From: Pyropia yezoensis
Lineage: Eukaryota; Rhodophyta; Bangiophyceae; Bangiales; Bangiaceae
NCBI GenBank assembly: GCA_009829735.1
Contig: CM020620.1
Span: 3,165,447 to 3,229,446 of the forward strand
Length of the DNA: 64,000 nucleotides
Direction: 5' to 3'
In this document: positions 17,228 to 51,068 of the stretch, piece after piece
Numbering within the stretch: position 1 is the stretch's first letter
Layout of the letters: each line of letters begins with the position of its first letter
Translations under genes and position numbers: made by a program
Notes under the pieces: generated by a model
What the model was told of the DNA's origin: nothing
The model's database searches: none
Seen by the model: the letters and a program-made list of their open reading frames with translations, nothing else

Positions 17228-18455
17228 CTAAGACAACGCGTCCTCCGACACGGAGGGAGAACGCTGCGAGTGGTGGCGATGACGACGAGGAGGCGAGTAC
17301 GCTCGGCTCTCCCGACGCCTGCCGCACCCAAGTGGGGCCGACAAAGACATGATGGAGCCGATACGAGCCAGCTCGGCCGTCATAAACTCTGCAACCGACT
17401 TGCAACTAGCAGTCGAGACGACAGTGCGATCGCGCTCCTGAAGTTGAGTAGCCTCCGACGTTTGGAGGGTGGCAGCCGACGCGGCCATCCACGAAAGGGT
17501 GCGCACCAACGTGGTGATTAGCATCTCCGAAGTCAAGGGCGCGGACGGCAACACTAACTTGTGGTAGACCTTGAGTAGAGTAGCTCCCAAGTTCGGAGAC
17601 ACAGGCGTGGATGACTCAACCGCAACGACGATCGGGATGTCCCCGTGCGGCTAGAACTGAACAGGAGGAAGACGAGGGGCTCGCCGACTCGGTGGAGCCC
17701 GAAGGTAGCCGCGACCCCGAGGCGGGGTCGACGAAGCGCCTTGCACCAGATACTCTTTGTGAGTCGCTACGCCTAGCACCGTCTCCTTGTCCGGGGGCGG
17801 CGCACTGTGGCTTCGGGATGTTCCCGTGTGGCTGGAACGGGACGGAAGGAAGAGATGGGAGTCTCCGAGTGGGCGGAGCCCGATGGTAGCCGCGACCTCG
17901 ATTTGAGGCCGCCGCCTTGCCTTGCGCCAGGTACTCTACGTGCGTAGCTACGCCCACCGCCGACCTCTTGTCTGGACGCATTGCAGTGTGGCGCTTCACC
18001 CCTGGGGCATACGGGTAGTCCCCGATGCCCAATTGCTCCTTGAGTACCACCCGGCCGGCGTGAAGTTCACGACCGACCCAGACGAACTGCCTTAGTGAGC
18101 CTTCCTCCTTGGACCCGTTGGAGGATCGGCGCAACTTCTGCTCGATGCTCCCCCACTCGATGAGTTTATGGAGTCTCAGCATCTCCTCATGAAGAGAGAG
18201 CTGGCTCGCCGGGCATCCCTCAGCAACTAGCCGAGGGGTGAGCTCCTAAAACCTTGGATCAGGCGGGGTGACAAGCGCACCAACAAACCCGCGTCGCTGT
18301 ACGCACGCTACCGAGACCGACATGACCTCGAGGAGCCACGGTGTTGCCAACATGGCGAACACTAACTGGTCCGGGCTAGCCGTCAACATCACGGAGCCAA
18401 AGTTATCAACCAACTCCGGCAACATTGCCGGGAACCCAATAGGGACCGGAACTTG
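17228..18455 (-). pseudogene. Antisense gene of D3, partial
   Basis: On the minus strand, reading from 18455 leftward, it matches the D antisense protein at 28558-30522: LRQFVWVGRELHAGRVVL against LRQFVWVARELHDGRVVL, then IGDYPYAPGV. Nearer 17228 lie the Ser/Arg-rich tail and SVSEDALS. The N-terminal part is absent because C' was inserted. It ends about 120 bp from the 3' end of the D3 pol remnant and is convergent with it. Broken, function unknown. Confidence 0.7.
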
Positions 18456-18459
18456 AGGC

Positions 18460-20455: not shown

Positions 20456-22825
20456 ATGTCGGACCCCCAGGTACCCGGGGGCGAGGACGACCTCCTGCTT
20501 GAGGAGGAGGAAGAGGTGATGGTGGACGACGTTCCCGTCTCTGCCACCGCCGCCGAGTGCTTTTTGGAGAGCTCGTCGGAGAACGAAGGCGACCGGGTGA
20601 CCGTTCGTGTGGCCCCGGGAGGTGCGCCGGGCGGATTGTCGTCCGTGTGCAGCGGCACGACGGCTCCGTCGGGTGGCGGGCAACCGCGTGTAGCGGCTGC
20701 CTCCACCCCTACCCCTCCGGCGGCCCGGATGGCTCCTGTCGCCGGTGCCGGCGCGGCTCTACCTCAAGACGGCGTCGCCGGCGTGTCGGACGGTCGTGGC
20801 GGCACCCCGGACGGGACGGCGGGTCAAGACGGCGCGGGTGCCCGCCCGGTTCGTGTGTCCGCGGCGGCGGGTAACGGGTCTACTCCTGCTGCCCCCGTGG
20901 TGCCCACGTCGGGCCCGGGTGGCAGCGATGCTCTGCCCGCGGTGCCGCGGACGCTTGGTGGTCAAGAAGTGTCTACCCCGATGGCAGTGGACTCCGGGAG
21001 CTACTCCGGGCGGGCGCCCGCCCTTCTTCTTCCTCCTCGGCCCCGTGCTCCTCCGGTGCCGGCCCATCTGCCGGTGGGGCTCCCCCCGGCGCCCCCGATT
21101 CTTCCTGGTCCTGCCCGGGTTGCCCCGTTGGGTGGCGGCGTCGCCTTGGCGGCAGGTCAACCCGCCCTGTCGATGTCCGACTTGGTGGCTCGGGTTCGAG
21201 GCATGACTGTGCAAGAGTCGATGGAGTCCGCTGGGCGGATGCGGGTGGACTTCCACCAGCCGCGTCTCCCTGGAGAGACCTCCCGGCGCGTCAGGGTGGA
21301 CCCGAGTTGGGAGCGGGAGTTGGTGCGGCTGGTCAACTAGCCGAACGCGGTCCGAGTGGAGCATCATTGGATCCTGAGCCAGCCGGACGACCGGCATGCG
21401 CAGCTCTGGCGCACCCGGATTGGGCGGGATGAGGTCTACCTCGACTCCGCCTTCGGGATATGCGACTTGATTGCCCCCGCGTTGCCGCGGGAGGTTGACT
21501 ACCCGGCTAGTGCTCGGGGGGTTGCGGCGGCGGCGGTGCCGGTGGCGTTTGGGGAGACGGTGTGTGATACCGGCCGGTATCCCGGGTTCGAGTACTTCCC
21601 GGGGGTATCCCCGTACCTGACGTTGACGGCTCCGTACCCGCCCATGGCGGGGTTGAAGTCGGCGTCGAGCTGGCGACGCAACCATGGTGTCATGGCGGAT
21701 GCGTTCCGCACCGATATAACGTGTGCGTTGCAGACCGGTAACGGTCGTGCGCCGGTGTACACCGCCGTGCGCCCGCCTCTGTGGCAGGAGGGGTGGGAAC
21801 CCGCCCCTGCTTTCAGGTTTGAAACCGGCTCCTGTCTCCGATACTTCAGGAGTGTGTTGGCCTCCCGGCCGGTCCACCCGTTACAGGGGACCTTCACCCT
21901 TGAGGTTCCCCTCGGGCAGGCTTCCTCCTTCTTGCTGTCCGTCCGCCGGCAGGGGCGCCTGTTTCATCTTCCGACGGTTGTCCGTCGGCATATCGGGCAG
22001 TTGGGCGTGGACATGATCGCTGCAAAGTCCGGGTTGGCTCGGGAGTTCGAGGCTCTGCTGGCTGTTCACGATGCCGTGAACTGGGCTGGGGTGTTGGCCC
22101 TTCCCCCGTACCAGGACCCGCAGGCTGGGGCTTCCCCCTTGGCTCGTCACTCGTTGCGTATCCGGCGTACTCAGCCGGGCGAGCCCAATTGCCATGGGTG
22201 GGCGTCCACCGAGGCTGTTGCTGACCTGGGTATTCCCATGGTTATCCATGACCCTCTTCAGATCCTTGCCCCGTGGTTCGGGTACTCGATACCGGTGGCG
22301 GTTGGCCGTCGTCCCCGAGAGTGGGGCTCTGCGGGTGGGGAGCGTGAGGTGTCCAGTCGTCGGGCGGAGCCCCGCCGGGTTTACGGTGGAGCCCCTTCAG
22401 TAGGGACCTACCGGGCCTCGTATCAGGCGCCACCGGCTCCGGCGGTAGCCGTGTCGGCTCCTGTGGCTCCTCTGGCTGCGCCAGTGTCACCTCCCGCCCC
22501 TTTCCTGCGTGATGGGGGTCCCCGTCTATGATATGATGGCGTTGACGCCCTTATTGCCCGTGAGATGCGGGAGGGTCTCTCTGTTAGCTGGGGGGATATC
22601 CCTCCAGGTGCTGCGCTGGTTGGGTCCGCGCGTTGCTTCGGTGGCGTGCTTGACCGCTTCCAGTCTGCTCTGGCGGACGTGGAGGCTGGCCGCAGCACCC
22701 TCGTCCAGCTATGCACCGAGGTAACTCGGGTGATTGACCGTCGTGAGATTGCCGGCCGGTGGAGCATGGAGGTGTACGCGCTTACGCGTGAGTGGCCTCC
22801 CTCCGGCAGTGGGTCTACCCACTGA
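20456..22825 (+). pseudogene. Antisense gene of B2 (aORF-B type)
   Basis: The start was chosen at an ATG in good context (TCACCATGTCG) shared in position with the B copy; both copies span 2370 bp. The N-terminus has an acidic run LLLEEEEEVMVDD, then about 250 residues of Ala/Pro/Gly-rich linker. A folded-looking middle follows with WERELVRLVN, HHWILSQPD, LWQEGWEPAPAF, LEVPLGQASSFLLSVRRQG and LFHLP. LEV, the RxG and LFHLP align with WLLEV, RRG and LWHLP of the D antisense protein. The end has a helical segment CTEVTRVIDRREIAGRWSME. No membrane segment was seen. It is convergent with pol, which ends about 450 bp away. Function unknown; about one or two breaks. Confidence 0.65.
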
Positions 22826-27743: not shown

Positions 27744-27748
27744 TCGGG

Positions 27749-28218
27749 TGTGGCAAAAGCCTCTCGCGCTCGCGACACCCAAGTTGGGGCAGAGTACAAG
27801 GGCTGCCTACCGTGTCGGGGGGAACCGGAAGAAGTGCAAGTCGCACACACTCTATCCCTGTTGTGGGGCAATCTTCCGACTGACAAACAAAAAGATGGTG
27901 TGTGGTCCAACAGTTTCTTGGTCGGGACGGGGAAGCAGGGCCAAGCCCCGCTGTCCCTCCCATTTTCCCCCCAGGGTCCCCTCAGAATCTCGCCTCTCAG
28001 AATCTCCCACCCCAGCACCTGCCCACCGGGCCACACGAAAATTCAAGACGATAAATGCAGAAAACCCTCAAATCCAAGTTGGATTTACTACCAAGCAAAC
28101 TATCCCAAACTTAGGGAATATGGACCCAAATGCAGGGGGAGGAACGGATGAGGCTAGTGGCCTGCCGCCCCTTGCATGGCACCTGTTGCTCCCCTACCTG
28201 GGGGTCAATACTGCCACA
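27749..28218 (-). repeat. 3' LTR of D
   Basis: 470 bp, TGTGGCAAAAGCC to ATACTGCCACA on the plus strand. It pairs with 56503-56971. Confidence 0.92.
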
Positions 28219-28557: not shown

Positions 28558-30522
28558 ATGGCGACCCCGAGGGTGGAGACGGACTCTCTCGACGAACGTA
28601 TGGAGGACACGTCCTACGGTGCAGCGCCCGCCGGGACTTCCGGCGGGGGCTCCGCGATCGCTCCGGGGGATGGGACTCCCGCGTCACCCGGCTTTGGATT
28701 GACGGCGGGATCTCCCCCGGAGGCGGGACAAGTTGTCCCGCGTGAGGCCTTGGGGCGGTGGTCTTATCCCGCTTGGCCTCTATATGAGGAGGGGTTGACT
28801 GTTCTTCGCTGTGGCCGACTTGGCGCAGCGATGGGTCGGGTATGGGACCGCCTACGGGAGAGGTATCCCCGTAGGGTCGGGTTCCCCGCCGGCTTCAGGA
28901 CGGACCATTTTGCCTTCCTGGACGATGAGGAGGTCGAAGACGTACAGCGGGCCAAGGCCATGGTGGACCTCGGGGGAACTATCCCGGGTCCCGGCAACAT
29001 GCCGACCTTTACCTGGGACGCGGTGGCAACTCGCCCCCCGTACCTTCACGAGGCCGATTCGCACACTCATCACTTTGATGTGCGGATGGAGAAGGACTTC
29101 CGGCGAGGTCCCTACTTGGTGACCCCGGCTCAACTTGAGTTTCCTCAACAGTCTGCTGCCCGTAAGGAGCAGTACTATCCGATGAAGCCCGAGTGGTGGC
29201 CTCAAGTTGAGGTCCCCTACGGGTTCCCGGCGTTGCTGCCACGGTTACTTGACAACTTCGGTTCCGTCATGTTGATGGCTGGCCCTAATCACCTGGTGTG
29301 GGCCATGTTGGCCACCCAGTGGCTCCTCGAGGTCATGTCGACCTGGGTGTCTTGTGTTCAGCGGCGGGGGATGCTCTGGCATCTCCCCCCCCGGCTTATC
29401 CAAGGTTTGGAACAGCTCACCCCTCAGCTAGTTGCTGAGGGGTGCTTATCAGGACAACTCACTCTACTTGAGGAGATGCTCCGCCTCCACAAGTTTATCG
29501 AGTGGGAGAGCATCGAACACAAGTTGCGCCGCCCCACTCGTGGGCCCAAGGACGATGGCGCACTTCGCCAGTTCGTATGGGTCGCTCGTGAACTTCATGA
29601 CGGCCGTGTGGTTCTACCAGAAGGGTTGGGCATCGAGGACTACCCGTATGCCCCGGGGGTGGATCGCTACACTGCGCCACCCCCTGACAAGGCCATAGTT
29701 ATGGCCGTGCCCTCACATGATGACCATATGACTCAACCCACTGCGGGGGCCCCAAGTCAGGGTCGCAGTTACACCCGGGTCCCGCCACCTCGGCGTGCCC
29801 CTCCGCTTCCTCCTGTCCCCTACCAGCCGCACGGGGACATCCCGATTAGCGTGGCCGTTGAGTCGTCCACCCCGGTGTCCCCCAACTTGGGGGCCACCCT
29901 CCTGACGGTATACCCCAAGTTGGTGTTACCGCCCACGCCTCTCACCTCAGTGATGATGATCAACACGTTGGTGCGCACCATTTCCTGGTTGGCCGCGTCG
30001 ACCGCAACCCTTCAAACTTCCGAGACTCCTCTACTTGAGGAGCGCGTTCGTACTGCAGTGGCGACCGCGAGTTTCGAGTCGGTGGCGGAGTTTATGACGG
30101 CCGAGTTGGCTCGCATCGGGGCTATTATGCCACAGCCAGCACCACTTGGGCGTGGCAAACGTCGTGCCAGCCGGGCATACTCGCCTTCTCGCCGTCGTCG
30201 CCGGCGCTCGCGGCGCTCTCCCTCCGTGTCGGAAGACGAGTTGTCTTACTCCGTCTCGGAGTCCTCGCCTCCGTCAGAGTCGGAGTCGGTCCGGCGTCTG
30301 CGTCGCCAACTTGCGCGCGAGACTAAGCAGAAGAGCAGCCGCGGTCGTCGCCACTTGCGCGACCGTGAGGGGCGCGACGGGTCCGACTTGGAGCCGTTGC
30401 CCCCCCAACGAGTGGTGACCGTGATCGGCGTTGGTCTCGCCGCTGGCCTCCACGTGAGGGCGAGGGCCGGGGGGTTGGAGAGTCTAGCATGCATGCCTAG
30501 TTGGCAGCTGCCTTTGTTGTGA
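28558..30522 (+). CDS. Antisense gene of D (aORF-D), open throughout
   Basis: A 654-residue frame open from ATG (GCCATGGCG, good context) to stop, opposite and convergent with D pol, with a gap of about 90 bp. Residues 1-60 are Gly/Pro/Ser-rich. Residues 60-400 look folded: YYPMKPEWWPQVEVPYGF (from 206), WLLEV (255-259), RRGMLWHLP (about 269-277), LLEEMLRLHKFIEWESIEHK and LRQFVWVARELHDGRVVLPE. A Pro-rich linker follows, then a predicted helix with FMTAELARIG. The C-terminus (about 530-620) is Arg/Ser-rich with RRRRRRSRRSPSVSEDE, resembling RS or nuclear-localisation tails. No signal peptide, membrane span or enzyme motif was seen. Its core is shared with the antisense proteins of A, B and C. 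I do not recognise the family; a nuclear or RNA-binding role is only a suggestion from the tail. Confidence 0.75.
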   Translation: MATPRVETDSLDERMEDTSYGAAPAGTSGGGSAIAPGDGTPASPGFGLTAGSPPEAGQVVPREALGRWSYPAWPLYEEGLTVLRCGRLGAAMGRVWDRLRERYPRRVGFPAGFRTDHFAFLDDEEVEDVQRAKAMVDLGGTIPGPGNMPTFTWDAVATRPPYLHEADSHTHHFDVRMEKDFRRGPYLVTPAQLEFPQQSAARKEQYYPMKPEWWPQVEVPYGFPALLPRLLDNFGSVMLMAGPNHLVWAMLATQWLLEVMSTWVSCVQRRGMLWHLPPRLIQGLEQLTPQLVAEGCLSGQLTLLEEMLRLHKFIEWESIEHKLRRPTRGPKDDGALRQFVWVARELHDGRVVLPEGLGIEDYPYAPGVDRYTAPPPDKAIVMAVPSHDDHMTQPTAGAPSQGRSYTRVPPPRRAPPLPPVPYQPHGDIPISVAVESSTPVSPNLGATLLTVYPKLVLPPTPLTSVMMINTLVRTISWLAASTATLQTSETPLLEERVRTAVATASFESVAEFMTAELARIGAIMPQPAPLGRGKRRASRAYSPSRRRRRRSRRSPSVSEDELSYSVSESSPPSESESVRRLRRQLARETKQKSSRGRRHLRDREGRDGSDLEPLPPQRVVTVIGVGLAAGLHVRARAGGLESLACMPSWQLPLL

Positions 30523-30611: not shown

Positions 30612-33600
30612 TCACGTTGAGGGAAGACTGTTAGGGTCTATCTCATTCCGGGCACAGGATGCCCGGACCTTCTCAGCGGGAAGGTCCTCCACATACTCCC
30701 ACATATCATCGTTGGCCTTATAGCCGAACCAACGCACCATCAACATGAGGCGGTTAGTGTCCTCATCCCAGCCGTGGTCGATGATCTTATCGAACACGTA
30801 CTCCTGCGGGCCCTGTTTGGCCGCAGGCAGTGAGGGGAGGCGCCACGCTTCCAACGCACGCGCCTAAGCTGGGTGGCCTGCAGGAGGTGGTGCAACTTTA
30901 ACCACATCCTGTCCGTTCACTGTGCGGACCCCATCGTCACTTTCGATGGTGAAGCGCCGCCCATCCGTACGAAGGACCTGGTACGGCCCCGTCGTCTGGA
31001 ATACTAACTTACCCCCAGTTGGGGTGTGTGAGTGGACCAATACCTAGCCACCCTGTTCGGGGACATGCTTGGCGTTGCGAACCTTTTTGTCAAAAGTACG
31101 CTTGTCGCGCTTTCGTGCTTTGTCCATCTCAGCCCTGACTTTAGGGATGACGTTTTCAAGCCTAGCAGCGAACTCCGCCTTACTCTCAGTAGTAGTAGGC
31201 GTCCTGCCACCATCCTCCCTAGTTGGGAGCGACCGCCGCACAGCAATAGACCGCACGCGACGGGGGGTCACAAAAGCGAGGGGTACTTCCCCGGTAGATG
31301 AGTGAACCTGCGAATTGTAGGCAGTGGTAAGAATAGAAATGTATTGGTCCCACGTTTTCACGTGCTCACTCACATAGTGGCGCAGCTGCCTGACAATAGT
31401 TTTGTTGAAGCGCTCAACCTGCCCATTAGTTTGTGGGTGGTAGGGGGTGGCATAGTTTGCCCGCACCCGCAACATATGCAGCACTCCCTGAAACAGTACA
31501 GACGCAGATTGCGGTCCATTGTCCGATAGTGTACTATCCGGAATGCCATACGCGGCAACCCAGTGATCTAGGAAGGCTGACACGACCGACATGGCCGTGA
31601 TCTCTGCCAGTGGGATCGCTCGCGTAAGCTTAGTGAAGCGGTCACAGATAACCAGGAGGTACTGGTTGCCCTCCTCGGTCACTGGCAGTGGCCCAAGGAC
31701 GTCCATCGCTAACGCGGCAAAGGGCTCCTTGGCCGGGAACAATAGCATAGCCGTAGTAGGCCGCCGTTCCATCAGACGGTTCTGTGCACAACTTGTGCAG
31801 GTAGCCACCCAACTGTAGATGTCCACCACCATGGACGGCCAGTAGTACCGTGGTCACAGCGGATGAGGAACTTCTCACCCTCTAGGTATTGACGAAGTGA
31901 CGTCACCGCCCACACCACTGCGAGTCCTTCCAACTCGGTGACTCCGTAGTTCTTCTCGGCCGAGTTCAGCCGCTCGCTGAAGTATCCCACCGGCACGTAC
32001 TCCTTATTCGGCTGCTGCTGAAGCAACACACAACCAAGTTGGTCGTAGCTAGCGTCCACATCCAGGATTTAATGGCCTCCCAACCTGGGTATAGCCAGGA
32101 AAAGGGGGCTTCAGCAGAAGGTCCCGAAAAGTCTCAAAGAATTACTGCTCCGCCCGACTTGCGGGAGTCAGGTTCTTCGGTAGCGTAGAGGTAACTGGCT
32201 CATTCAACGGTTTCGCCACCTTGGCAAAGCCCTTGGTGAAGCGTCGGTACACGTTACACATCCCGAGGACGCTCCTCATCTGGGTCTGGGTCCGGGGGTA
32301 CTGAGTCTCACGGATGGCCCTCAAGTTCTTCTCGTTGACACTGAGGCGCCCCCGACGGACAACATGTCCCAAGTATTCCACCTCTTGAGTGAAGAGGTGG
32401 CACTTACTCGCCTGCAGTGACACACCGGCGTCAGCAAGTAGCTAGAACACCTGGCCAAGATGGCCAATGTGTTCCTCCGGACTTCGGGAGAACACAATGA
32501 TATCGTCTAGATACACGAGACAGATCTGCCACCGTACTCCGGCCAGAATCATGTCCATAGCGCGCTGTAAAGTTGCCGGCGCGTTGCACAGTCCAAACGG
32601 TAGTCGCTTGCACTGGTAGGTACCACAGTGACAGGTAAAGGTAGTTTTATGCCTGTCTTCCGGGGCAATGGGAATTTGACAGTACCCCGCGTTGCAGTCC
32701 AGGGTAGAGAACACGTTTGCCTCCCCCAGAGAGTCCAGACAGTCGTCCATCCTAGGTCGGGGATAACTGTCCTTCACCGTGCTCTCGTTGAGCTTACGGT
32801 AGTCGATACAGAACCGGGGGGTCCCATCAACTTTGGGGACGATAACCACCGGACTCGCCCACTCGGCGTTGCTGGCCTCGATCACATCGAGGGCCTCCAT
32901 GCGAGCAACTTGCTCCTTGACGAGGGCCCTTGAACGGGGCCCTCCCCTATACGGTTGTTGGCGTATAGGGGGTGCACCGGGCTTCAACTCGATCCGGTGT
33001 TGGGTGGCTCTCATGAGTACCAATTGGCCATCCCACAACTTGTGATATTGGTCCAAGAGGCGTTCAACTTGAACCCTCAACCTGGGTGGGACACCCTCCA
33101 TGTTCACATAGGGCCGAGGAGAGGCGGCCGACTTGGCTTGATGCTTCTCCTTCCCGGACTTCGGGTCGCTACTCGCGCCCGCGTTGAGGGTGACCGCTAC
33201 TACCGGTCCCTCGTGTTGGTCGATATAGCCGAACTTGGCTCCCGACTTGAAGTACTTGGGCGACGAGCTCAGGTTCATCACCTGGATCCTCCACGGGACT
33301 CCGGCTTTGGAGTCCATCGTGCCAAGGGCAACATGCACTTGGTGCTTGCGAGCAAGACGGGGGTGAGGGTGCACCAACCCGTTCCCCGTATAATCAGTTA
33401 CAACGTCAACGTGCGCCACCGAGTTGGGGGGCAACGTGACTTTACGGGCTAAACGCAGGGTAGCAGTAAACCCTTCTCTCACAGAGCAAACAGGCTTCGA
33501 CTGTGAGACTGTCACAGGAGCCACAGACTTTCCCTTACCAAGGATGGGGATGGTCTCCCCATTCTTCAACTTGACCCAATACTCAGGGCCACAAATCAAA

Positions 33601-34082
33601 GGCACTTGTGTAACAACATAAGGGGTACCCAGAAGCAGGGGTACCGATATATTCTCACCTACTCCATAGGTCACGTCGACCTCATGGGTCCCCAACCTTG
33701 TCGGTAGGGTCACGGCACCAACGATGGGAAGTACCCCACCATTGATATCGATCAGATGGTCAGCTTTAGACCTCCAGCGTTGGAGCTTCACCTCCTTTGG
33801 TAATAGCGACTTGCGTATAAAGGAGGCCCCTGACCCGGTATCAAGTACGATACGGGCACAGCAGGCACGGACGGGGGCAAGTTGCACCCGTCCAGCCACC
33901 TGGACGTTCTCACCCGTCAGCACCGCGATGACCCGACGTGGGTTTACGTTCTTGGGGAGTCCTACCCGAGGTGGGCGGACTCTCTTAGGTCGCCGCAGTA
34001 TCCGGCACGGTTGGTTCGTCCTCTTGACCCACTTGGCCGAGGCTGCCGTTGTGAGCTTTGGACAGTCAGCTCCAACGGTCAT
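30612..34082 (-). pseudogene. pol: pol region of D
   Basis: Minus strand: protease DTGSGASFIRKSLLP (about 33800-33845), LGTPYVVTQVPLICGPEYW linker, reverse transcriptase FCIDYRKLNESTVKDSYPRP / LPFGLCNAPATLQRAMD / YLDD (32440-32870, YLDD near 32502-32513), RNase H with MDASYDQLGCVLLQQQP (about 31870-32140), integrase core DVLGPLPVTEEG / DNGPQSAS / YHPQTNGQVERFNK (about 31300-31740), and chromodomain EYVFDKIIDHGWDED...RWFGYKANDDMW (about 30680-30815). Broken in several places. Confidence 0.85.
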
Positions 34083-35671
34083 TCGTTTCCCGCCGACTTG
34101 GCGTCCGAATCTGAGGACGAAGGGGAAGACGACGAGTCCGAGGACGACGTGTCCGCCCCCTCCGCCGAGGGTGTGGCGACCGCCACTACCGGTCGAGGCC
34201 CACCCTCGCGGCGTGAACGTACTTCGTTCGTAGCCGACTTCCTACTCGCATTCCTAAAAAGTTGTTGAATGCTTTTACTCAACTTGGGGCAATCCTATGC
34301 CCAGTGTCCATCGGAGTTGCAGTTCCAACACCGATTATCAGTTCCCGGACGGGTCTTCCCAGCTGGGAAAGACGAAGAGGTACCCTGGGAAGTTCCCACG
34401 GTAGCTACCACCCTCTCCTCGCGGATTCGACGTGCCGCTCTCAACTCTCTGGCCTGGCGCGCCTCCTCCCGTTCCTTGGCCAACTCGGCTTGACGCTCCT
34501 GGCGATGTTCCTCCCGCAACTTGCGGTAGGCCTCGCCTCTGCGGTAGGCGAGCCTAGCCAACTTGGCCAGGGTCGCCCGGGCAGTGTTATGCTCCCGGGT
34601 CCCCATCCGGACTGACCAATGGAGTCCCTCCACAAATTGACTTTTCACCACAGCTTGTGGATGAAGAAACCCACGAAGATTGTTGAGCTTACGGACTTTC
34701 TCCGCAAAGGACAACTCGTCCTCCGCCTCTTCCTGATGGGCTTGCGTAAACTCCTCGACTTGAGAAGCCAACGCCGCTTCATCAACCATGGCCCTCAACA
34801 ACCAGTTGACGAGCTCCAAATAGGACGTCACCTCCCCAGCGCCTCCACTTGAGGAGCTGGGCATAACGGACATAAGTTCTGTCCGCAGGCCTCCCTTCGT
34901 AAACTCCTGTAGCATGAAAAATGCCACGCGTTCACTTATGGGATTGTCGTCACAGGCTTTTATGAAGCGACGTAGAAACTGAAAGAAACGGAGGGGGGGA
35001 GTTCCATCCCACTCCGCTTTGTGCCCTAAAGAGTGACGTGCATTCTTCTTCGCAAGGCCCATAGCTCACGCCTGAATAGGACCGTACGCCACCGACTTGT
35101 TGTCGAGGGCGTAGGTCTCACAGTCAAAGAATCTCTGGTAGACCGGGTTGGCTACCTGGATCTTGGGCGGCACCTCACGTTGAGGGAACAGCCGCTGTGG
35201 CACTGGGGTAAGGTGCCCATCAGTGCCTGTAGTCTGGCGCGGCGAGCTTGGTATAGCCGCCGGCGTTTCGGTGGGAAACTCCCACGTGAAGGGCGTACGC
35301 CCCGCTGAGAATGGTGTGGCTCCCTCGTTGGGAGTCACAGGTGTCGCCTCCTGTTCGGGGCGACCCGCGATACGCGTGAGGAGAGATTTCCCCTGCGCCT
35401 GCGGGCTCGAATGCCCCGATCCGGTCTGGACATTAAGGCCATCTGGCAAACTCGCCACAATCTGATTCAGAATAGTATTCGTCATCGTGACCACCAGGTC
35501 CGGCAAAGTCTGCCGCAACACATTGTTCGCCTCCCGACGGACAGTTTCCGCGAGGAGTGGATTGTCGACTCCAGTTGAGTCTCGGTCCGCCTCCGGGAGT
35601 CTACCTGAGGGGTAACCACATTCCTCAGGGGTCTCAACCAGGGGCATGGGCGCGAGACCATCGCCGACCAA
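34079..35671 (-). pseudogene. gag: gag region of D (main part)
   Basis: On the minus strand: linker with FTWEFPTETPA, capsid-like region with FLRRFIKACDDNPISERVAFF and YLELVNWLLRAMVDE, a long KxR-rich helix (EERQAELAKEREEARQ), and the knuckle start CWNCNSDGHW near 34290-34330. The C-terminus is Ser/Asp-rich (SSSDSSSSPSSSDSD). Capsid and helix match A gag. The N-terminus is across element B at 56035-56383. Broken. Confidence 0.8.
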
Positions 35672-35681: not shown

Positions 35682-36045
35682 TGTAGCGATATGATCGGCC
35701 GTATTGCGACCCTAATATTAGGGGGGCTACTTCTAATCCTTGACTTTCAATTTGTGAGTCCGTACTGGTCACGGTATCTATAAGTTACTTATGACCAGAG
35801 GGACTTGCATCTTGGGGTGGAGGGTAGTTAGTAGCGTCTCCGAGGGTTTATAACGAGGGGGCCGGCGGCGAATCCACCGCCGGCCAAGGTAGAACAACAA
35901 ACCCCTCCCATTTGGGCTCCCATCTTGGTCCCGTGGCTTGCGCTCCACGGACAGCAACCTTGGCCTCCCGGTGACGTTGGTGCCGATCCCCCGTGGTGAG
36001 TGTTCCCTGAGAGTGGACGTGCAGCGGATACCCTATTGTGCTACA
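35682..36045 (+). repeat. 5' LTR of B
   Basis: 364 bp, TGTAGCGATATGATC to TATTGTGCTACA. It includes a TATA-like GGGTTTATAACGAGG (about 35843-35857) followed by a hairpin with 9-bp arms GGCCGGCGG / CCGCCGGCC (35860-35885). Both are kept in all four B-type LTRs of the window. Confidence 0.93.
35843..35885 (+). promoter_or_regulatory. TATA-like box and GC hairpin in the B LTR
   Basis: TTTATAA followed within 10 bp by an inverted repeat of nine G/C bases with an 8-base loop. It is present at the same place in the LTRs at 55671, 19498 and 59083. Likely the LTR core promoter with a structured RNA start; inferred from sequence only. Confidence 0.5.
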
Positions 36046-36263: not shown

Positions 36264-38448
36264 GTGACTATGTCTACCCAAGAGACAGGGAACGTCCAAG
36301 GTGACAGATCGGCGTCGACGCCGACCCCGGAGCTGATCCCGGGAACCGGGATCGGTAACCCGATCGACAACATTGAGACGCCGATGCTCTCCGGTGCCGG
36401 ATCGACGTTTGGTACGGCACGGACGGCCGGGGGCGGCGGACCGCCGCAACTGTCCTCTGCCGACCTCACGCCGCCGCCACCATCACCAGGGGATTCCCTG
36501 ATGGCATCATTGGCTCGCATCGAAGCTTTGTTCACCGGGCTCGACGCCCGTCAAGAGCGTACGGAGGACGCAATGGCGGTGCTGCTGTCAGCACGCCATA
36601 CGACGGTACCCCGTCGGGTCCCCCCCACACTGGTACGGTTCGAACCGGCCTGACTACCTTCGGAGGCCACCAGGGTCAACCCCGGTGTTGCTACTCCTGG
36701 ACAACCCCCGGACACGGCGGGTTATGGATCCGACTCGTCGGGTGTGTTGGAACGTAGCCATACGGAGCGCTACGCTCGGAGCACCCAGAGCGGGCTCCTC
36801 GGACATGGTCCGGCGGACACTTACGCCGGAACAGAGTCGGCGATGGGGGGAAACAGTACCGTCTCGCAGTACGCAATCGACGAAGGGAGCCAAGCAACTC
36901 GGGTACCCGAGGCGCCGACGCCGGAAGTCCCAGCGTCACTGATGCAAGCGATGACAGCGCAGGTTACGGCGAGCTTACTGAAGCGGTTGGAGTCCGATGA
37001 GTTCACTCATCAATTGGCCAAGCGACTGGATATCCAGGACGCAGACACGGAGATTGTCAACGAAGTCTTCAGGTCGGTACTGACTCCCGAACGTTGTCAT
37101 TTGGAGGACCGATCCACTGCCGTATCGGAATCGATGCGTACGACCTCGCACCGAGCGATTCGCTCTATGCAGACCCTTATGAAGGGAGTCCCTATGTTCG
37201 GGGGCCCCAACGGACGCCCGTTGGCAGTCATCGGCTTCTTGACTAGGTTGAAGGCAGCCGCAGACAAGGCACTCGTCAACGAGGGGCTGGCGCTGGAGAT
37301 GCTCCCGTTCTTCGTTGACGAGCGGGTTCGAGGCATCCTCCGCCAGGCATCCCCGATTCCGGGAATGAGGGTCGCAGCCACCCCCATGGATTACCGTGGT
37401 ATATTGAAGGAGTTGCTTAGAAGCTACCTCAGTGAGGACAAGTGCAAAGACCACTATCGGGCCCTTCGCACCGCCACCGCCCAGTCCTGGGAGGATGAGG
37501 AGATGCTTGGACGCCGGATCCAAGAGCTCGACTACGAGCTGGGGAAGCTCCTCGGTGAAGGGGAACTAAGGGCCATCCTGTTCGCAGGAGTACCCAACTA
37601 CGCGCGGATATCCGCACGGGGAGCCAATACGGCCCGGACGAACTTCAGGCGACTGATGCACATGTGCAAGTCCCTAGAGGACGCCTACCGGGTGCTACAC
37701 CCGGAATGTGCCTTGGCCCCGAAGCCCAAGGGTGAGGGATGCAATCCCAGTCTTACCCCGGTACCAAGGAAAGAGAAAGGTGGAGCGCAAGGTCGCACCA
37801 GTACTGGTGGCGACCAAACATACCCCTTCGGGCGAGGAGGAACCTCTAGTCGCCCAACAGGGCCACCTGTTGCTACCGGCGACGCCGGTGATTGATGAGC
37901 ATGGTACGGTAGCGTACATCGCCCCGGCTGGGACTCAGTTCCAGGTCAACGAGGGAGCGGGTTGGCACGTCCCGTATGTGCGGACTACGGGGTATGCCCC
38001 GGTTACGGGTAACCCCCACCAGCCCCTGCCGACATGGGCAGTACGTACGGAGGCACCTCCGCACATCGCTGGTAGAGCCAACCGGTTGGGGGAGTCCATG
38101 TTCCGGCTGGCCCCGGGACCCAAGGCCTACCAAGGGGCGGGCACTCGGGCGCCCGAGGCAGGCAACCGGACCTATGGAGCCAACCCGACGCGGACGCCCG
38201 GGACGGCCGGCACGTCCGGATGTTTGTTGTGCGGAGACCCCCAACACTGGGTGTCCTCATGCCCGCTCATCCCGGAGGAGTCTAGACGGGCAGCGGCGCA
38301 ACGCAAGGCCTCCGTCGGGGGGTTTCCCACCGAAAGCCCGGCACCGGGTAGGCAGCAAGCTCCAGGAGGAGTACTGGCAGTCGAGGAGGCACCCCCTCTC
38401 TCGGATGTCCCGGAGGACAGTACCCGGCCGAGCACGGCAAACGAGTAA
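36264..38448 (+). pseudogene. gag: gag region of B
   Basis: Begins MSTQETGNVQGDRSASTPTP, followed by a Pro/Gly-rich linker, then a capsid-like helical part with ASLLKRLESDEFTHQLAKRL, MQTLMKGVPMFGGPNGRPLA, LLRSYLSEDKCKDHYRAL and GRRIQELDYELGKLL. The knuckle is CLLCGDPQHWVSSC at about 38220-38262. The capsid differs a lot from A and D gag, so B is a separate lineage. A few breaks. Confidence 0.8.
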
Positions 38449-38531: not shown

Positions 38532-41346
38532 TTGAGCCGACGCCGCATCAACCCCCGGGTACACCTTCCGGCCCCGACGACACGGCGTCAGGGGATTCAT
38601 GACCAACCTCCAAGGTTGGGAGGAAAGGACGGGAAGCCCCGTCACATGGAACCAGACAAGGGCCCTGTTCAGGATGCCCGAGGTACACCGGATATTGGTG
38701 TAGGCCACGTGCTGTTCACCTTGGAGAGCTTCAAGGTATCAGCCACACTGGGGGTTGACCCCCAGTCGACCCGATCGTACTACCCCGTACTGGATACAGG
38801 GGCTAGACCTAACTTGATCCGGAAGGATACTCTCCCGGACAAGTGGCTCCCGCGAGTCAGATTTGCTCGGGGACCCACGATCAAGGATGCGAATGGTCGT
38901 CTCATTCGTACGACCGCAGCGATGTCGCTGCAGGTCACCATCGGGGAGCTTACTACGGAAGTTGACTTCCTGGTATGCGACACGCTATCTGTGCCCTGCA
39001 TACTGGGGTGCATGCACCTTCATCAACGTTCACGTTGATGCAATCCGGCCGGGCCGGAGGACCGTCGAGCTGCAAGAGGCCGACGGGACGAAGTGAGGAC
39101 AGACAGCTATCGTCAGGGACCTGACGCTACAAGGGAGCCACGTCAACGTGGCTGAGGTATACGCAAACGTAGAGCCGAAGACACTCCGGCTGGCCAAGCG
39201 GACTCGCTTTGAGCCGTTATCGGAGACCGTCCTCCCGGTTAACTGTGACCTCGCAGGCATCTGCAGAGTCCAGTCCAACCTACGGACCTACAAGCGCCAT
39301 GGATTGACCATGGCCAATGGTATCGTAGACCTCCCAGCGGGGGGGTCATCACTGCTGGTGATGGCGAACTATCGCCGTAAGGCAGTCACCCTCCCGAAGG
39401 GAACTATCCTCGGGATTGCCGAGCTCTACAAAGGAGAGATCCTTAGCCCTGACAAGGAAGGTCAAGTGGAACCACTTGAGGTACTGGCGGTCGCCGAGAC
39501 CACCGAGCGGCAGCAACCCCATGACGGGAAGCCTAGCCCATCGACAGCTCCGGCGGACATGCCGCCAAAAGACAAAGAAGCCTTGAGGGCACTGGCCGAG
39601 GCTGACCTCGACCACCTTTCCTCTTCGGTAGCTGAAGGAGTACGACGGATGCTGAGAAAGCATGATGTCATGTGGACCGGCGGGGCGCTGGGTACCATTG
39701 GGGCAACCCAACACCGTATAGACCTGGTACCAGGTGCTCGACCAGCGCGGTCGCAACCGCATCGCGCGGGATCTATGCAACGAGAGATCGTTGATGGGAA
39801 AGTGAAGAGGATGAGTGAAGCTAAGGAGATCCGACCTTCGATGTCGGAGTGGGGTGCCCCAGTCGTGATCGTACCGAAGAAGGATCAAACCCCTCGGTTT
39901 TGCATCGATTATCGACGCCTCAACTTGGTTACCAAGAAGGACTCATACCCTTTACCAAGGATGGACGAGTGCATCGATTCCCTGGGGGAAGCCACAGTGT
40001 TTACCACTATCGGCTGCAATGCCAGGTACTGGCAGATTGCCGTTGCGGGGGAGGATATCCCCAGGACGGCGTTCGTCTGTCACAGTGGCGTGTATGAGTT
40101 CCTAAGGATGCCCTTCGGATTGTCCAACGCCCCCGCCACATTCCAACGGGCCATCGGCATTATACTGTCGGGAGTCAAGTGGCGGAACTGCCTGGTGTAC
40201 TTGGACGACGTCATCGTCTTCTCGCGTAACATGGATGACCATGTGCAACATGTCGACGAGGTACTCACCCACTTGCGGAACGCCGGGGTAACCCTGCCCC
40301 TCAAGAAGTGCGCCTTCTTCCAGCAGACAGTCGAGTATCTGGGTCACCAGATCACACCAGGTAAACTGGGAGGACTCGAAGCTAATACCCGGGCACTCCG
40401 GGATGCGCGATACCCGACCACCCAGACACAGCTGAAAAGCTTCCTGGGGATGTGCAACGTATGCCGACGGTTCGTCAAGGACTTCGCTCGTATAGCCAAA
40501 CCGTTAACGGCTCTGACGAGCAGTGCCTCGCCAAAGGTACTCCAACCTCCCTCGCCCAGCGAGGGAGAGGCCTTCGAGCTGCTCAAGCAAGCTCTTCTAG
40601 CCCCACCCGTGCTTGCGTTGCCGCATAGACGCGGGACCTTCGTCATCGACGTCGATGCCTGCGACACCCAAGTGGGATGCACCCTGCCACAGGGAGAGAC
40701 CATCATCGGTACCGATAATGCTATCCCGGACCTACATCCGGTAGGGTACATCAGCCGGACACTCAACCCGGCTGAGCGTAACTATAGTGCCACCGAGAGC
40801 GAGTGCCTCGGAGTCATATGGGCAGTGCAACTTCTCCGGCCATACCTGGAAGGTTCCAGGTTCATCGTAAGGCCCGACCACGAACCTTTACGATGGCTTC
40901 TCAACCTTGGTGACAAGGATTCCGACAGCCACGGTCGGCTAGCCCGGTGGAGGCTGAAGATGGCCGAGCACGACAACCCGGACCATATATCAGGCCGGCT
41001 CTACCCATCATTTGGGAGACGCGCTGTCGCGACTCGATATACCGAGCGGGGATACCCGACAGGTGGACGAAGACATCCCGGTTGTACCGGTGTGCATGGT
41101 GGGTAATGCTACCCAAGGTATGGTTGACCATATCATGGCACACCTTGCGTGCCCATTGACCCTCGCGGACTTCCGCGAGGCACAGGCCAATGACGATGAC
41201 AGTAAACGCCATCGTGCTAACCTCCTGGCCGGCACGGCCGGCATCGTCTCCGAGAACAAGGACGGACTCATATACCGGCGGGCACCCGCCGATGGACGGC
41301 ATCAGGTCGTGGTTCCCGTGTCCTTACGGCAAGCCGTCATGGAATG
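38532..41346 (+). pseudogene. pol: pol region of B, part 1 (PR, RT, RNase H)
   Basis: Protease VLDTGARPNLIRKDTLPDKW (about 38785-38850), reverse transcriptase FCIDYRRLNLVTKKDSYPLP / MPFGLSNAPATFQRAI / YLDD (about 39890-40330; YLDD near 40198-40210), and RNase H with DVDACDTQVGC and TESECLGVIWAVQLL (about 40630-41010). Element C interrupts the integrase that follows; the rest is at 51069-52260. A few breaks. Confidence 0.88.
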
Positions 41347-41409: not shown

Positions 41410-41981
41410 TGTAGCATCCCTGGCCCCGACTTGGCGCCGACCCGGGCCTGCGACCAGAGGGCACCAGGTGCCAGTACACGCCCGCCGCGTGGTGATGGTT
41501 GGCGGCCGTGGCCCGTGCCCGGCACTGGGATGCGGTGGACTACGCTATCCACACGCGAGAGAGGGATTTCTGATGTGTTTTTGCATACTTGTGAGGGACT
41601 TGAGTTGAGAGAAATTGAGTGTGAGATTAGCGAGTGGGAATAGAATTAGTAGTGATAGTGGCCCCCGACCTGACGAGGTTAGACTCGGGTCGGGGCCACT
41701 CGGGGGTATGGGGGGGCTACCTGGCCAACGTGCCGAGGCTCCCCCAGATGCACGTTAAGAGGGACAGCGAGGCGCTCTTGGCCTGCGCCCTCAGGGAAAA
41801 AGACAACTGCGCGTTTGCTTTCCTCTTCCCCGTGTGCACTACCGTGCGTATCTGTTTGCCCTGCGAGCAGGCACGTGAGGCAACAGGCATACCATTCTCG
41901 TAGTTCCCCTTTCTGTGTTACCTGTCCCTTTCCCCCGAGGGATATTGACACGTGTCTGAGAGGATCGAGTTTTATACCACA
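41410..41981 (+). repeat. 5' LTR of C
   Basis: TGTAGCATCCCTGG to TTTTATACCACA, 572 bp. Confidence 0.95.
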
Positions 41982-42003: not shown

Positions 42004-42192
42004 TAGTGGAGTGTTTGGGAAGAGACAATTGGGAGCAGCGGTTGGGTTGTTCCTGTTCTGTCTTTTTCTGTGGCTTGGGAATTATTTGCAACCGTTCACG
42101 GGAATCCCATTCCTGGCTCTCGAACCCCTCTCTTGTGGTCTTGCGATCTTTGGACACGCAGGCAACTGGGTTGTGGCTGTCAAGAGACCAAC

Positions 42193-43954
42193 ATGGCTAC
42201 CCTCCCTGGCACGACGGTGCCCGAAGGGGTAGACCCCGCGTCCCTTGACGCAACCCTGGTCACCGCGGGGGACGGTGCGCAACCCGGCGTTCTCCCTACG
42301 GGTAAAGCAGACCTGGGCGTGACATCCGGTAGCGGACTGGAGTCTACAGGCGGCCAAGTACCTCCTGCTCCCGTTCCTCCGGCTGTTCCTCCTGTGGGAG
42401 CCACCCCGGGGTCAACGGCGTTTGAGTCCGCTCGCAGCAGACGTCTCCCTCCTGTCGGTTCTACTCCTCAACCTCCAGGGATAGCCCCTGGTGTGTTTAC
42501 TCCTGGACCCACACATGGCAGCTGGGTGTATACACCTCTTCCTGTGGGCACTAGCAGTGCCAGAGGCACCGCTATGACTGGTTCTACGGGTCTTCCTGAG
42601 ACTTCGACTCCTGGGACCGGCCAAGCTTTTCCTTCCCTTGCATCCTATGGGGCGGGGAGCTCCAAGACCGGTAACCGGAACAGCCGTAGGCGTCGGCGTC
42701 GTCGCCGTCGCTCTAGCACCAGCGAGACGAGTTCCTCCAGCTCTGAGGAGGGATATGACTGGGATGCATCTCCCGGTCCTACCAGGCGCAGGCTGGTCGA
42801 GTTCGACTTCCCTGCCCACCAAGTGGGAGATGCCACCCTGAACAAGGTCACGTATTGGGGTAACTACCGGCTGGAGAACCAAGACCAAGGTTACACCCGG
42901 AAGATGGCCAAGAAGATGGCATCCCTGAACCGGCGAATGCAGCCGAGCTTTGGGGGACATCCTAAGTTTTCCGGGAAGAAACCGGCGCTTATCCTTGCCT
43001 TCCTGCGCCGGTTTGTCAAGGCATGCAATGACAACGATGTGTCCGAGGGCAAGGCTCTCTATCTCCTGGTGAACTTCATGACCGGAGAGGCGGAACAGCG
43101 GTTTGCACAGGTTCTACCAGACTCTGCCGGACCCATTGTCGGGCGTACCGTTGCGAGTTACCCGGAGGCGGTCAACTGGCTCCTGTCCAACTACGCTGAC
43201 GCGGACTCCCTGCGTAAGGCAGTCGGCAGGTTGAACCGGGCAGCCATGGAGAGACAAGAGACTCCAGAGGCATTCGCTCGTCGTGTCCGGGAGATGAGCG
43301 AGGCTTGTGGCAACGTTTGCCCTGAGGACAGGCTCAAGATGATCTTCTCGGAAGGGCTTCCTGAATATCTTCAAGTGGATGCGGAGAACTACAACCAGAT
43401 ACATCAAGAACATACCTTCCAGCAGTTGATGGCCTACACCCAGGGAAAGTACCCGCAAGCCAAGGCCCTCCAAGCTCCCATGGTATCAACTCCCAACCCT
43501 TTTGTCGCGAGTTCGTCCCGGACCCGACAAGTATAAGGGAGGTGATAGCCCTGAAACGGTACTCGCAGTCGGCGAGGCCTCACCCATGGAGTCAAGGGAC
43601 AAGTGGGGCGGCTTCGTTTCTAAGCAGCAACCTTCCCTGGTCACCCCCAAGCAGGTAAAGAACCAGCGGTTCCGGTCTTGCTGGCTGTGCCAGAAGGAGG
43701 ACCACATGTCCTACCAGCGCCCGACCATCCCCAAGGACCTCCAGGAGAAACTCAAGCGTCAAGGACTGGTGTTTGCAAAGGCGGTCAACTGGTCTGACCG
43801 GCGGGCACCCTCCAAGATGGACAAGGCACAGGTACACGCAATCCGGGTGGCAACCTTGCAGAGCATCACGGAGGCTCTGGCAAGGGAAGCTCCTACGGAC
43901 TTCGACCTGGAGACCGAAACCTCTAAGGACTCCTCGGACCCGGGAAACGAGTAG
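42193..43954 (+). pseudogene. gag: gag region of C
   Basis: Start at MATLPGTTVPEGVD (ACATGG). About 160 residues of Pro/Gly/Thr-rich linker follow, then a basic run of nine Arg followed by SSTSETSSSSSEE (about 42684-42750). The capsid part has GHPKFSGKKPALILAFLRRF, KACNDNDVSEGKALYLLVNF and YPEAVNWLLSNYAD, homologous to A and D gag. The zinc-knuckle block CWLCQKEDHMSYQ is at about 43678-43720. The C-terminus is acidic (DFDLETETSKDSSDPG). About one break. Confidence 0.82.
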
Positions 43955-44082: not shown

Positions 44083-47000
44083 TTGTTCAAGGGGACCTTG
44101 CTTGTCCTGCGTAAGGAAAACCTCAAGATCAATGCTCGTATGCGTGTGGGGGATAGCCTCCCTCAAGCTGTTACTCCGGTTGTTGACACGGGAGCCGGAC
44201 CAAGCGTCATCACTGAGAACCTGCTACCTCCAGGCTGGCGTCAACATGCCTGTAGAGCGCCTACCAAGACCCAGATTGTAGACGCTTCGGGTCAAATCCT
44301 ACGACCGCTTGGCCGTCTTCCTGTCGCCATCTATGCCAACAATGAAACAATGCTTTTTCCCTTTCTAGTAGGCAAGACTCTATTAGTCCCCCTCATCCTA
44401 GGCTGGGACTTCCAGAAGCAGCATGTCAAGAGTATCCTGCCCGGAGAAGGAAAGGTGCAGTTCAACCATGGGTTTGTGTCACCGGTGCTGGAGCGTCTGG
44501 GCGCCAAGGTTCGTGTGGTCAAGAACAAGAAGGAACGTATCCCACCCTCTACCTTGACTCTCTTCAAACCGGTGCTCCTACCTCCTCGTTCGGAGACCAA
44601 GGTTCAAGTCACGACCCGGACTGCAGGCCAATGCCTGATCTACGGACGCAAGGAATTTCTGGCGAAACACCGATTACACCTAGCCCACGGACATCACAAG
44701 AAGGTGGAGAGGCACACCCCGTTCTCGGTGCTGATCGTCAACGTGAGCCGGAAGCCAATCACCCTCGCCAAGGGCACCTGAGTTGGTACAGCAGAGCCTT
44801 ACCGGGGGTCCGCCCGTGCTATGAGCAAGGAGGACCTCTTGAACCTGCAACAAGAGTTGGCATCCAACTTGACGGCCTCAGACGTATCTCCGGAACAAGA
44901 GCAGGCTGACAGTGCTACTCCGAAGCCCGAACCAGCACCCCCCGGGATGCCAAAGGTCAACCAAGAAAATGTCCCTCCCGACTTGAAGGAGACACTGGAG
45001 AAGCTTCTCCAGGAATATCGGCACCTGTGGTCCGGAGAGCTGGGCAAGATGGACGCCACCCTACACCGGATTCAACTCAAGCCAGGTGCCAAGCCAGTGC
45101 ACATGCAACCATATCGGGCTGGACCTCATCGCCGGGATGAGATTGAGAAACAGGTTAACAAGATGCTCAAGATGGATGTTATCGAGCCGTCGGATGGCGA
45201 GTGGGCTTTCCCGGTGGTAGTCGTCCCGAAAACCGGCGGTCACTTCCGTTTCTGCGTTGACTACCGGCGCCTGAACGAGATGACGGTCAAGGATGTATAC
45301 CCGATACCCCGGATGGATGATTGCATCGACTTTCTTGGTGATGCCACCCTCTTCTCGACGCTGCATTGTAGTGCCGGTTACTGGCAGATCCCTCTTGCTG
45401 ACGAGGATAAGGACAAGACTACCTTCACGTGCCACTTGGGACTATTCCGGTGCAAGCGTCTTCCTTTTGGTCTCACCAATGCCCCGGCAACCTTTCAGAG
45501 AGCCATTGACATCATCCTGTCGAGGCTAAGGTGGAGAACATGTTTGGTCTACCTGGACGATATTATTGTTTTCTCCAAGACCCCGGCGGGACACCTAGCG
45601 CACCTACGAGAGGTTCTGGCTCTCGCGTCCAAGGCTGGAGCTACCCTGAAGGCCGAGAAGTGCCACCTGTTTGAGACTGAAGTGGAATACCTGGGGCACG
45701 TGCTGAGTCCGGGGGAGCTCCGGGTCAACGAGAAAAACATCAAGGCCCTCCGGCATGCACGGCAACCAAAGACCCAGACGGAACTCAAGAGCTTCCCGGG
45801 TATGTGCAACGTCTATCGCCGGTCCGTACGGGACTATGCCCTGATTGCCCGGCCATTGACCAAGCTCACCAGCAGTAAGCTCCCCGTACAACTCCCGGTG
45901 TTCGACGAGAAGCAGACCGCTGCCTTCGAAGAGCTCAAGAAGCGCCTGACCACGACTCCAGTACTGCCGTTACCCAAGCGAGAGGGCCAGTTTGTCCTGA
46001 AGACTGAAGCCTGTGGCGTCCAGATGGGGTGCTCTCTACTCCAGCAGCAACCTCATGGGCACTTCCTCCCGATAGGCTACTACAGTCGCGTCTTGACTCC
46101 AGCCGAGAAGAATTATTCCACGACGGAGCGCGAGTGCTTGGCAGTCGTCTGGGCTTGCGTCCTGTTACGGCCATATCTTGAAGGACAAGAGTTCCTCATC
46201 CGGACGGACCACGCCAGTCTAAGGTGGCTACTATGCATGGACAGCAGCCAAGAAAGGGTCGCTCGGTGGCGCCTACGCCTTTCGGAGTTCAAGTACAAGG
46301 TGTGCACCAGAGCAGGGAGGGAGCACCACTGCGCCGACACCATGTCCCGGCTGGAGACTCCTGCAGCCGACACCGGTCCTATCCCGGAGGAAATACCTTG
46401 CTTCATCCCCCCGAATGTCGGACGTGGCTGGCATGCTCCCCTGTATGAGACACCTGAAGCTCATCAACCGGTAACCATTCACCGGATGCTGGAGGCACAA
46501 CTGACGGACCCTCAATGCTTGGAGCTTCGCCACCAAATGGACCTGAACCGGAACAGTCGCTTCTCCGAGTCTACAGATGGACTCCAGATACGGGTGTCAC
46601 CCTTCGATGGGGCAACTCAAGTCTACGTACCCCGGAGTCTACGGGCTGACATTCTACGCCTGGAGCACTCGTCTCCCCAGGCCGGACATCCTGGTATCAA
46701 TCGGATGTATGCTTCCATGAGACGACACTATTACTGGGAAACCATGGCCAGTGACGTCCATAAGTACCTGGAGGCTTGTGTTTCTTGTGCGAGGAACCGG
46801 TTGTCCCAGAGGAAGAAGACTTCCAAGCTACGCCTACTCCCTGCGGCGGAACCCTTTGCAAGCTTAAGCACGGACATCCTGGGGCCCCTACCTGAAACAT
46901 CCAGTGGCAACATATACCTGCTCATCATTTGCGACCGGTTCTCCAAGTTCACTCGAGCGATCCCGCTGAGGACCATCACGGCTCTGGATGTCACATCGGC

Positions 47001-50491: not shown

Positions 50492-51063
50492 TGTAGCATC
50501 CCTGGCCCCGACTTGGCGCCGACCTGGGACTGCAACCAGAGGGCACCAGGTGCCAGTACACGCCCGCCGTGTGGTGATGATTGGCGGCCGTGGCCCGTGC
50601 CCGGCACTGGGATGCGGTGGACTACGCTATCCACACGCGAGAGAGGGATTTCTGATGTGTTTTTGCATACTTGTGAGGGACTTGAGTTGAGAGAAATTGA
50701 GTGTGAGATTAGTGAGTGGGAATAGAATTAGTAGTGATAGTGGCCCCCGACCTGACGAGATTAGACTCGGGTCGGCGCCACTCGGGGGTATGGGGGGGCT
50801 ACCTGGCCAACGTGCCGAGGCTCCCCCAGATGCACGTTAAGAGGGACAGCGAGGCGCCCTTGGCCTGCGCCCTCAGGGAAAAAGACAACTGCGCGTTTGC
50901 TTTCCTCTTCCCCGTGTGCACTACCGTGCGTATCTGTTTGCCCTGCGAGCAGGCACGTGAGGCAACAGGCATACCATTCTCGTAGTTCCCCTTTCTGTGT
51001 TACCTGTCCCTTTCCCCCGAGGGATATTGACACGTGTCTGAGAGGATCGAGTTTTATACCACA
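50492..51063 (+). repeat. 3' LTR of C
   Basis: 572 bp, a direct repeat of 41410-41981, preceded by the purine-rich AGGGAGGGAGCTA polypurine tract (about 50479-50491). Confidence 0.95.
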
Positions 51064-51068
51064 CGAAG

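Follow-up and report, generated by a model that had tools for sequence, protein, structure and literature searches.

Whether the antisense open reading frames (ORFs) of retrotransposons code for protein has often been left open, and the D antisense gene raises this question for red algae: is it a gene, to what is it related, and what would its product do? In each of four Ty3/Gypsy families of Pyropia yezoensis (A, B, C and D), all of them present in the 64,000-nucleotide stretch of DNA analysed here (the window), a long frame of this kind separates pol from the 3' LTR and runs opposite gag-pol. Coding is backed in this case by frame-specific selection together with homology across the four families. 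We favour, with a probability of roughly 0.55, the reading that these frames are a selected, trans-acting antisense accessory gene of related red-algal chromovirus-like families, with a product that is likely nuclear.

Position of the antisense genes and structure of their host elements

In intact copies of families A-D the antisense frame spans 654-825 codons. The original prediction had listed long antisense genes in A, B, B2, C and D; position and strand held for all five and the D and C genes proved open, but A, B and B2 carry stops. A further partial copy of the D gene, D3, had been placed at 17228-18455; it is indeed a partial D copy, found broken into pieces.

28558..30522, + strand: D antisense gene, 654 codons, uninterrupted, starting MATP, 339 bp inside the 3' LTR
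48206..50305, - strand: C antisense gene, uninterrupted over 699 codons, separated by 163 bp from the pol end and by 186 bp from the 3' LTR
2749..4623, + strand: A antisense gene, counted from the first conserved ATG at 2749, one in-frame stop at 3061
52738..55107, - strand: B antisense gene, read from 55107 down to 52738, one stop at 53139-53137
20456..22825, + strand: B2 antisense gene, start as originally predicted, stops at 21338 and 22529
17231..18459, - strand: D3, partial broken copy of the D antisense gene, in pieces (self-comparison, profile search)

In L069, another copy of the B family, no stop interrupts the antisense frame for 825 codons, counted between its bounding stops. The first conserved antisense ATG lies inward of the 3' LTR, at a distance of 186 bp in C, 339 bp in D, 563 bp in B and 992 bp in A; the genes and pol converge at their 3' ends, with 111-534 bp between the antisense gene and the last pol ORF identified. 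We also searched the 107.5 Mb genome, for which the genome report gives 48.0% repeats, mostly LTR elements (PMC7423979). This genome also encodes light-harvesting proteins (14 matches). Among the best-scoring matches listed, with the antisense gene alone scored, the matched stretch was without a stop in 62 of 67 cases for D, 58 of 64 for C and 40 of 64 for B. The open frames of many young copies are not themselves evidence of coding.

The LTR pairs of the four families were obtained from a self-comparison of the window, and the main features of the host elements are as follows.

27749..28218, - strand: D 3' LTR, TCGGG at its outer side (27744-27748)
56503..56971, - strand: D 5' LTR, 92.8% identical to 27749-28218, TCGGG at its outer side (56972-56976)
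31044..31832, - strand: D integrase ORF (rve, E 2.1e-10)
32442..34082, - strand: D ORF with reverse transcriptase domain (domain scan)
34295..35062, - strand: D gag-like ORF, 42% identical to the A gag-like ORF
41410..41981, + strand: C 5' LTR, 98.4% identical to the C 3' LTR, CGAAG directly outside (41405-41409)
50492..51063, + strand: C 3' LTR, CGAAG directly outside (51064-51068)
42070..43536, + strand: C gag-like ORF (ORF list, gag comparison)
44821..48042, + strand: C pol ORF with reverse transcriptase, RNase H, integrase and a weak chromodomain match
1116..1756, - strand: A 3' LTR, 98.0% identical to 10746-11387
10746..11387, - strand: A 5' LTR (self-comparison)
4735..5349, - strand: A ORF with chromodomain match (E 7.1e-5, 23.1 bits, below the cut-off of 25.1)
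5368..6999, - strand: A RNase H and integrase ORF (domain scan)
7130..8383, - strand: A reverse transcriptase ORF (domain scan)
8743..9807, - strand: A gag-like ORF (gag comparison)
35682..36045, + strand: B 5' LTR, GTCCG at its outer side (35677-35681)
55671..56034, + strand: B 3' LTR, 96.4% identical to the B 5' LTR, GTCCG at its outer side (56035-56039)
36744..37895, + strand: B gag-like ORF (gag comparison)
39148..41106, + strand: B reverse transcriptase and RNase H ORF (domain scan)
51064..52203, + strand: B integrase ORF, its listed start at 51034 falling in the C LTR, without chromodomain match

Three of these elements form a nest at 27749-56971, with C in B and B in D, each bordered by a 5-bp target duplication (CGAAG for C, GTCCG for B, TCGGG for D); the C insertion splits B at the junction 41409/51064. 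When five D copies were compared with L016, alignment was gained some 750-900 bp ahead of the antisense ATG, consistent with the edge of the D LTR. B2 sequence adjoins D on both sides (19497-27748 and 56972-59445), and D is therefore probably itself inside B2. Further D-type LTRs at 13127-13595, 15278-15746 and 63223-63646 are 80-84% alike to 27749-28218, and some of them may be solo LTRs. An open pol ORF at 59440-62622 (- strand, 1060 aa) is C-family-like and stands directly beside a B-type LTR; the stretch 59445-63204 is 94% complementary to 43501-47260.

Adjoining the 5' LTR of A, B, C and D is the 12-mer GGTGGAGCAGCA, which resembles a primer site and is common to the four families; we treat it as a putative shared primer site. 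It occurs at seven places in the window (36048, 41987, 19038 and 13599 on the + strand; 10731, 56488 and 59069 on the - strand), each just inside an LTR.

Selection in the antisense frame

The antisense genes could be chance open frames in GC-rich DNA, or the shadow of selection on the gag-pol strand. Two observations lean towards this: the GC content of seven antisense genes is 63-68%, and dN/dS is also low in frame -3 of the opposite strand (0.30-0.68). We calculated dN/dS by NG86 for 16 pairs and then for four more among B, B2, L069, D and D3. In the first set, the antisense frame gave 0.14-0.524 in 15 of 16 pairs (one was saturated), frames +2, +3, -1 and -2 gave 0.876-2.706, and frame -3 gave 0.299-0.647. 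The four further pairs (B, D-D3) gave 0.292-0.454 in the antisense frame versus 0.802-1.857 in frames +2, +3, -1 and -2, with frame -3 at 0.438-0.68. Considering that frame -3 has its third positions in common with the antisense frame, lies above it in dN/dS in all 19 defined pairs and is full of stops (11-27 in seven genes), we regard its low values as a shadow.

Random placement of the same substitutions never produced as few residue changes as observed (0 of 1000 placements in each of nine copy pairs). Stop counts as low as those observed were reached in 0-97 of 1000 placements, so stop avoidance alone is weak evidence. After dinucleotide shuffling, none of 300 sequences was open throughout for any of five genes, which is a strict criterion; the longest frames were 363-491 aa. 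The comparison of antisense with sense frames, which had been put forward as a check, thus locates purifying selection in the antisense frame, as judged from both dN/dS and random placement. Likewise, the argument that chance frames would not persist on this strand is borne out by the shuffles and by significant homology. Given that the similarity of D to A also sits in the antisense frame (see below), we reject chance or shadow frames on the shuffles, the frame comparison and the random placements, and leave them with next to no probability. That a selected antisense protein gene is present is, in our judgement, nearly certain.

Selection on this strand might instead act on an RNA, for example one that forms double-stranded RNA with genomic RNA, and an antisense-RNA role has been proposed as possible for plant antisense ORFs in a review (PMC7264820). 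The constraint seen here, however, falls on amino acids, and third codon positions are the most variable, which makes RNA as the working product very unlikely. An antisense-RNA role may exist beside that of the protein.

Homology of the antisense proteins

The protein encoded by D was compared with those of the other families by single-subject BLASTP, which gave E 1e-19 for D-A, 5e-7 for D-B and 2e-6 for D-C; C-A gave no match, and C-B and B-A did no better than E 0.29. Family profiles aligned with hhalign matched at E 2.8e-23 over 409 columns for D-A, 3e-5 for A-C, 1.3e-5 for D-B and 1.5e-4 for D-C. The profile-profile check envisaged with the original prediction therefore succeeded among D, A and C and between D and B; it was weak for A-B (E 0.0085) and found no match for C-B (E 0.34). 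A ten-sequence A/D profile reached C at E 7e-7 (probability 92%) and B at E 1.7e-5 (probability 78%). For D-C, D-B, A-C and A-B, the real score was reached by none of 40 locally shuffled targets each.

To these protein comparisons we added tblastx at a threshold of E 1e-3. Matches of D to A, Ap and Ap2 were confined to the antisense frame, the A-Ap match was by far strongest there, and D-Ap3 showed one further frame (E 9e-4). For D-C the antisense frame was best (9e-5), with two other frames at 2e-4, and D-B gave no match at E 1e-3. Other pairs with C, B or B2 produced scattered weak matches in several frames (E 5e-5 to 9e-4), which we take as compositional. Because the C-B profile comparison is null, A-B is weak and tblastx matches are scattered or absent, B and C appear to join the family mainly through D and the A/D profile, in protein and profile comparison. 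With D matching A, B and C significantly by BLASTP and the A/D profile extending to B and C, the proposal of one antisense family shared by all four is upheld, and on sequence comparison we conclude that the four proteins are homologous. The motif said to link D and A is identical at 10 of 18 positions, as predicted; the corresponding D-C motif has 8 of 18 identities, one fewer than had been claimed.

The proteins consist of an N-terminal part, a conserved core of about 170-200 residues with the pattern Y-P..P.WW...EVP.G ... W..EV ... LW.LP, and a Pro/Ala-rich linker. A and D also have a common C-terminal block. The comparisons did not show a C-terminal domain common to all four: C-B gave E 0.016-0.05, and the A/D block gave E 0.26-0.73 when set against C or B. 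The C-terminus of D is Arg/Ser-rich and basic, a feature absent from the other families examined. In a tree of the antisense core the deep forks are weak and A is not placed with D; this tree neither confirms nor excludes inheritance of the gene with its element.

Known domains and relatives in other assemblies

No significant match to the antisense proteins was found in Pfam (best E 0.21) or among PDB sequences (best E 0.11, PLRG1); the protein family thus has no described relative at a significant level in these libraries. A run of G..L..PN residues in D resembles that of Retand and prompted a comparison with TRP28 (PF04195). The genome yielded no PF04195 candidates at E<=10, and the domain was absent from eight window ORFs and 13 family members scanned at E<=1. 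The conserved Retand positions G21, P25, L34, P46, N47 and F55, taken in their spacing, were matched at best at three or four of six in each of ten antisense proteins. Homology to TRP28 is not supported by these searches.

Nor did an origin from Gag find support: comparison of five antisense proteins with the gag-like ORFs of the four families gave nothing at E 0.1 save one match of 33 residues between the C gag and the B antisense protein (E 0.005), which we take as compositional. The same comparison bears on the idea that the antisense strand encodes a structural or particle protein, be it a second capsid-like, an envelope-like or a cell-to-cell movement protein. The length of the protein and its conserved core with linkers would suit such a role, but so little resemblance to gag-like ORFs speaks against it, as does the expectation that a late structural product would come from the sense transcript. 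We consider it unlikely. A suppressor of host silencing, or a factor controlling copy number in trans, would be in keeping with a protein that is diverged yet constrained and with the many stop-free copies among the matches listed. The Pfam scans, however, returned no domain or motif for such a role, and we give this account the same low standing as a structural protein.

Three protein searches, each scored on the best 8000 candidates, recovered P0006 (93% identical to the D antisense protein and starting at the same ATG), P0007 (76% to L059), P0014 (63% to part of D) and P0008-P0013, which come from other assemblies and are 31-39% identical to L059. P0006-P0014 carry neither a Pfam domain nor a name in their source database. 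Five of these proteins were tried against the families (P0008, P0009, P0010, P0011 and P0013): each matched D as well as A, and B and C were matched by none at 0.01. Within the Pyropia yezoensis genome, P0010 finds at best a 38% identical match, so it is no copy from this genome. P0008-P0010 stand on the A side of the antisense core tree (87/94 support), and our guess is that their hosts are other Bangiales. Starts of the form M-(A/S)-x-P occur in D, A, L059 and P0009 and are absent from P0008 and P0010. Viral contigs scanned with P0010 and P0002 contained no relative.

Chromodomains and relationships of the host elements

Reverse transcriptase, RNase H and integrase follow the Gypsy order, in one pol ORF in C and in separate ORFs in A, B and D (RNase H being identified in A, B and C). 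The elements had been described as chromodomain-bearing. A, D3 and C gave matches of 23.1, 20.8 and 20.2 bits (E 7e-5 to 6e-4), all under the Pfam cut-off of 25.1; among the integrase ORFs examined, those of B, B2 and D had no such match. To the eye, the final part of the B integrase frame (52100-52260, + strand) looks like a decayed chromodomain, but it has no Pfam match. Across the genome, 150 chromodomain matches were scored, in retrotransposons or elsewhere. An earlier survey records no retrotransposon chromodomain for Porphyra yezoensis (PMC3350952).

The integrases of A, B, C and D are mutually 45-65% identical. They are split with 100/100 support from those of L001, L002, L004, L006 and L008 in a 10-row tree whose root was not tested, and are 26-33% identical to them. 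Gag-like ORFs are 42% identical between A and D, 34-35% for A-C and C-D, and 23-29% for pairs with B. By integrase and gag together, A and D are thus closest and B furthest, an order that fits inheritance of the antisense gene with the element, as far as sequence comparison goes. Reverse transcriptase identities (A-D 48% over 406, A-C 56% over 266, C-D 59% over 243) were left out of this order because the aligned spans differ.

L001-L008, the eight best chromodomain matches of the genome, represent a second chromodomain lineage with stronger chromodomain scores. The antisense family profile matched none of the eight, each searched to 1.5 kb downstream of the chromodomain. The five included in the integrase tree are 89-99% alike and all eight may be one lineage, so they do not amount to eight independent cases without the gene. 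Within this genome they provide a counterpart to A-D, a second chromodomain lineage that yielded no match to the antisense gene (0 of 8 loci, perhaps one lineage).

Proposed role of the antisense protein

Of the functions weighed, a nuclear accessory protein is our best guess, owing to the analogy with Grande and other antisense genes; on that analogy, we would give a nuclear regulatory or helper role even odds. Transcription of the antisense gene would start at a promoter within the 3' LTR or next to it. Its protein would act in trans, most likely in the nucleus, where it might regulate or assist the expression, RNA export or integration of its own element, as has been proposed for maize Grande gene23 and is known for retroviral antisense proteins.

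Comparison with known antisense genes

Antisense genes at this site are already known in plants and fungi; what is new here is the red-algal chromovirus-like lineage. Extra ORFs in chromoviruses are reportedly rare and situated only 5' of gag (Steinbauerova et al.). Among the open-licence literature matches listed, there was no report of antisense genes in red-algal retrotransposons. The present genes extend antisense accessory genes to a chromodomain lineage of red algae.

In a review, antisense genes between pol and the 3' LTR are given for Grande, RIRE2, Retand, PvRetro13 and the fungal Boty (PMC7264820). The plant representatives, termed aORF-3R (Grande gene23, RIRE2, Retand ORF4, PvRetro13), resemble the algal genes in being long antisense ORFs between pol and the 3' LTR that occur in most copies of a family, and some of them are described as common to several species (PMC7264820, PMC11963269). 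Grande gene23 is portrayed in the same review as a nuclear protein with antisense transcription from an antisense promoter upstream of gene23 (PMC7264820). The Grande and PvRetro13 proteins are likened to the algal ones by described position alone. Retand differs in being a non-chromovirus of flowering plants; its antisense ORFs carry TRP28 (PF04195) in 97% of clusters, a domain known in flowering plants only (PMC11963269), whereas PF04195 has no match here. The original comparison with plant Tat-lineage elements thus holds for position. It does not extend to TRP28, which had no match, and a gene of this type is present in fungal Boty too.

The gene in question is brtn of the Boty-like retrotransposons of Botrytis cinerea, an additional antisense gene counted as aORF-3R in the review (PMC7264820) and the subject of Zhao et al. 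2011, a work cited in PMC8365987. Its host is a fungus, and it is likened to the algal genes by description, not by sequence. HBZ of HTLV-1 and APH-2 of HTLV-2 are also proteins from the strand opposite gag-pol; published accounts describe an antisense promoter in the 3' LTR and nuclear products (PMC11963269, PMC7264820). They differ in coming from retroviruses of primates and, again, are likened by description. Both are of the bZIP type and much shorter than the algal antisense proteins.

Set beside these systems, the algal genes suggest, as a tentative view that we hold at less than even odds, a red-algal chromovirus clade with an antisense regulatory gene peculiar to it, which would predate the divergence of no fewer than four element families and share no ancestry with TRP28. 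Such genes would then have arisen repeatedly in Ty3/Gypsy elements (Retand, red-algal chromoviruses, perhaps Boty). If this is true, the antisense side of the 3' LTR would be a site where proviral regulators generally reside, as they do in HTLV.
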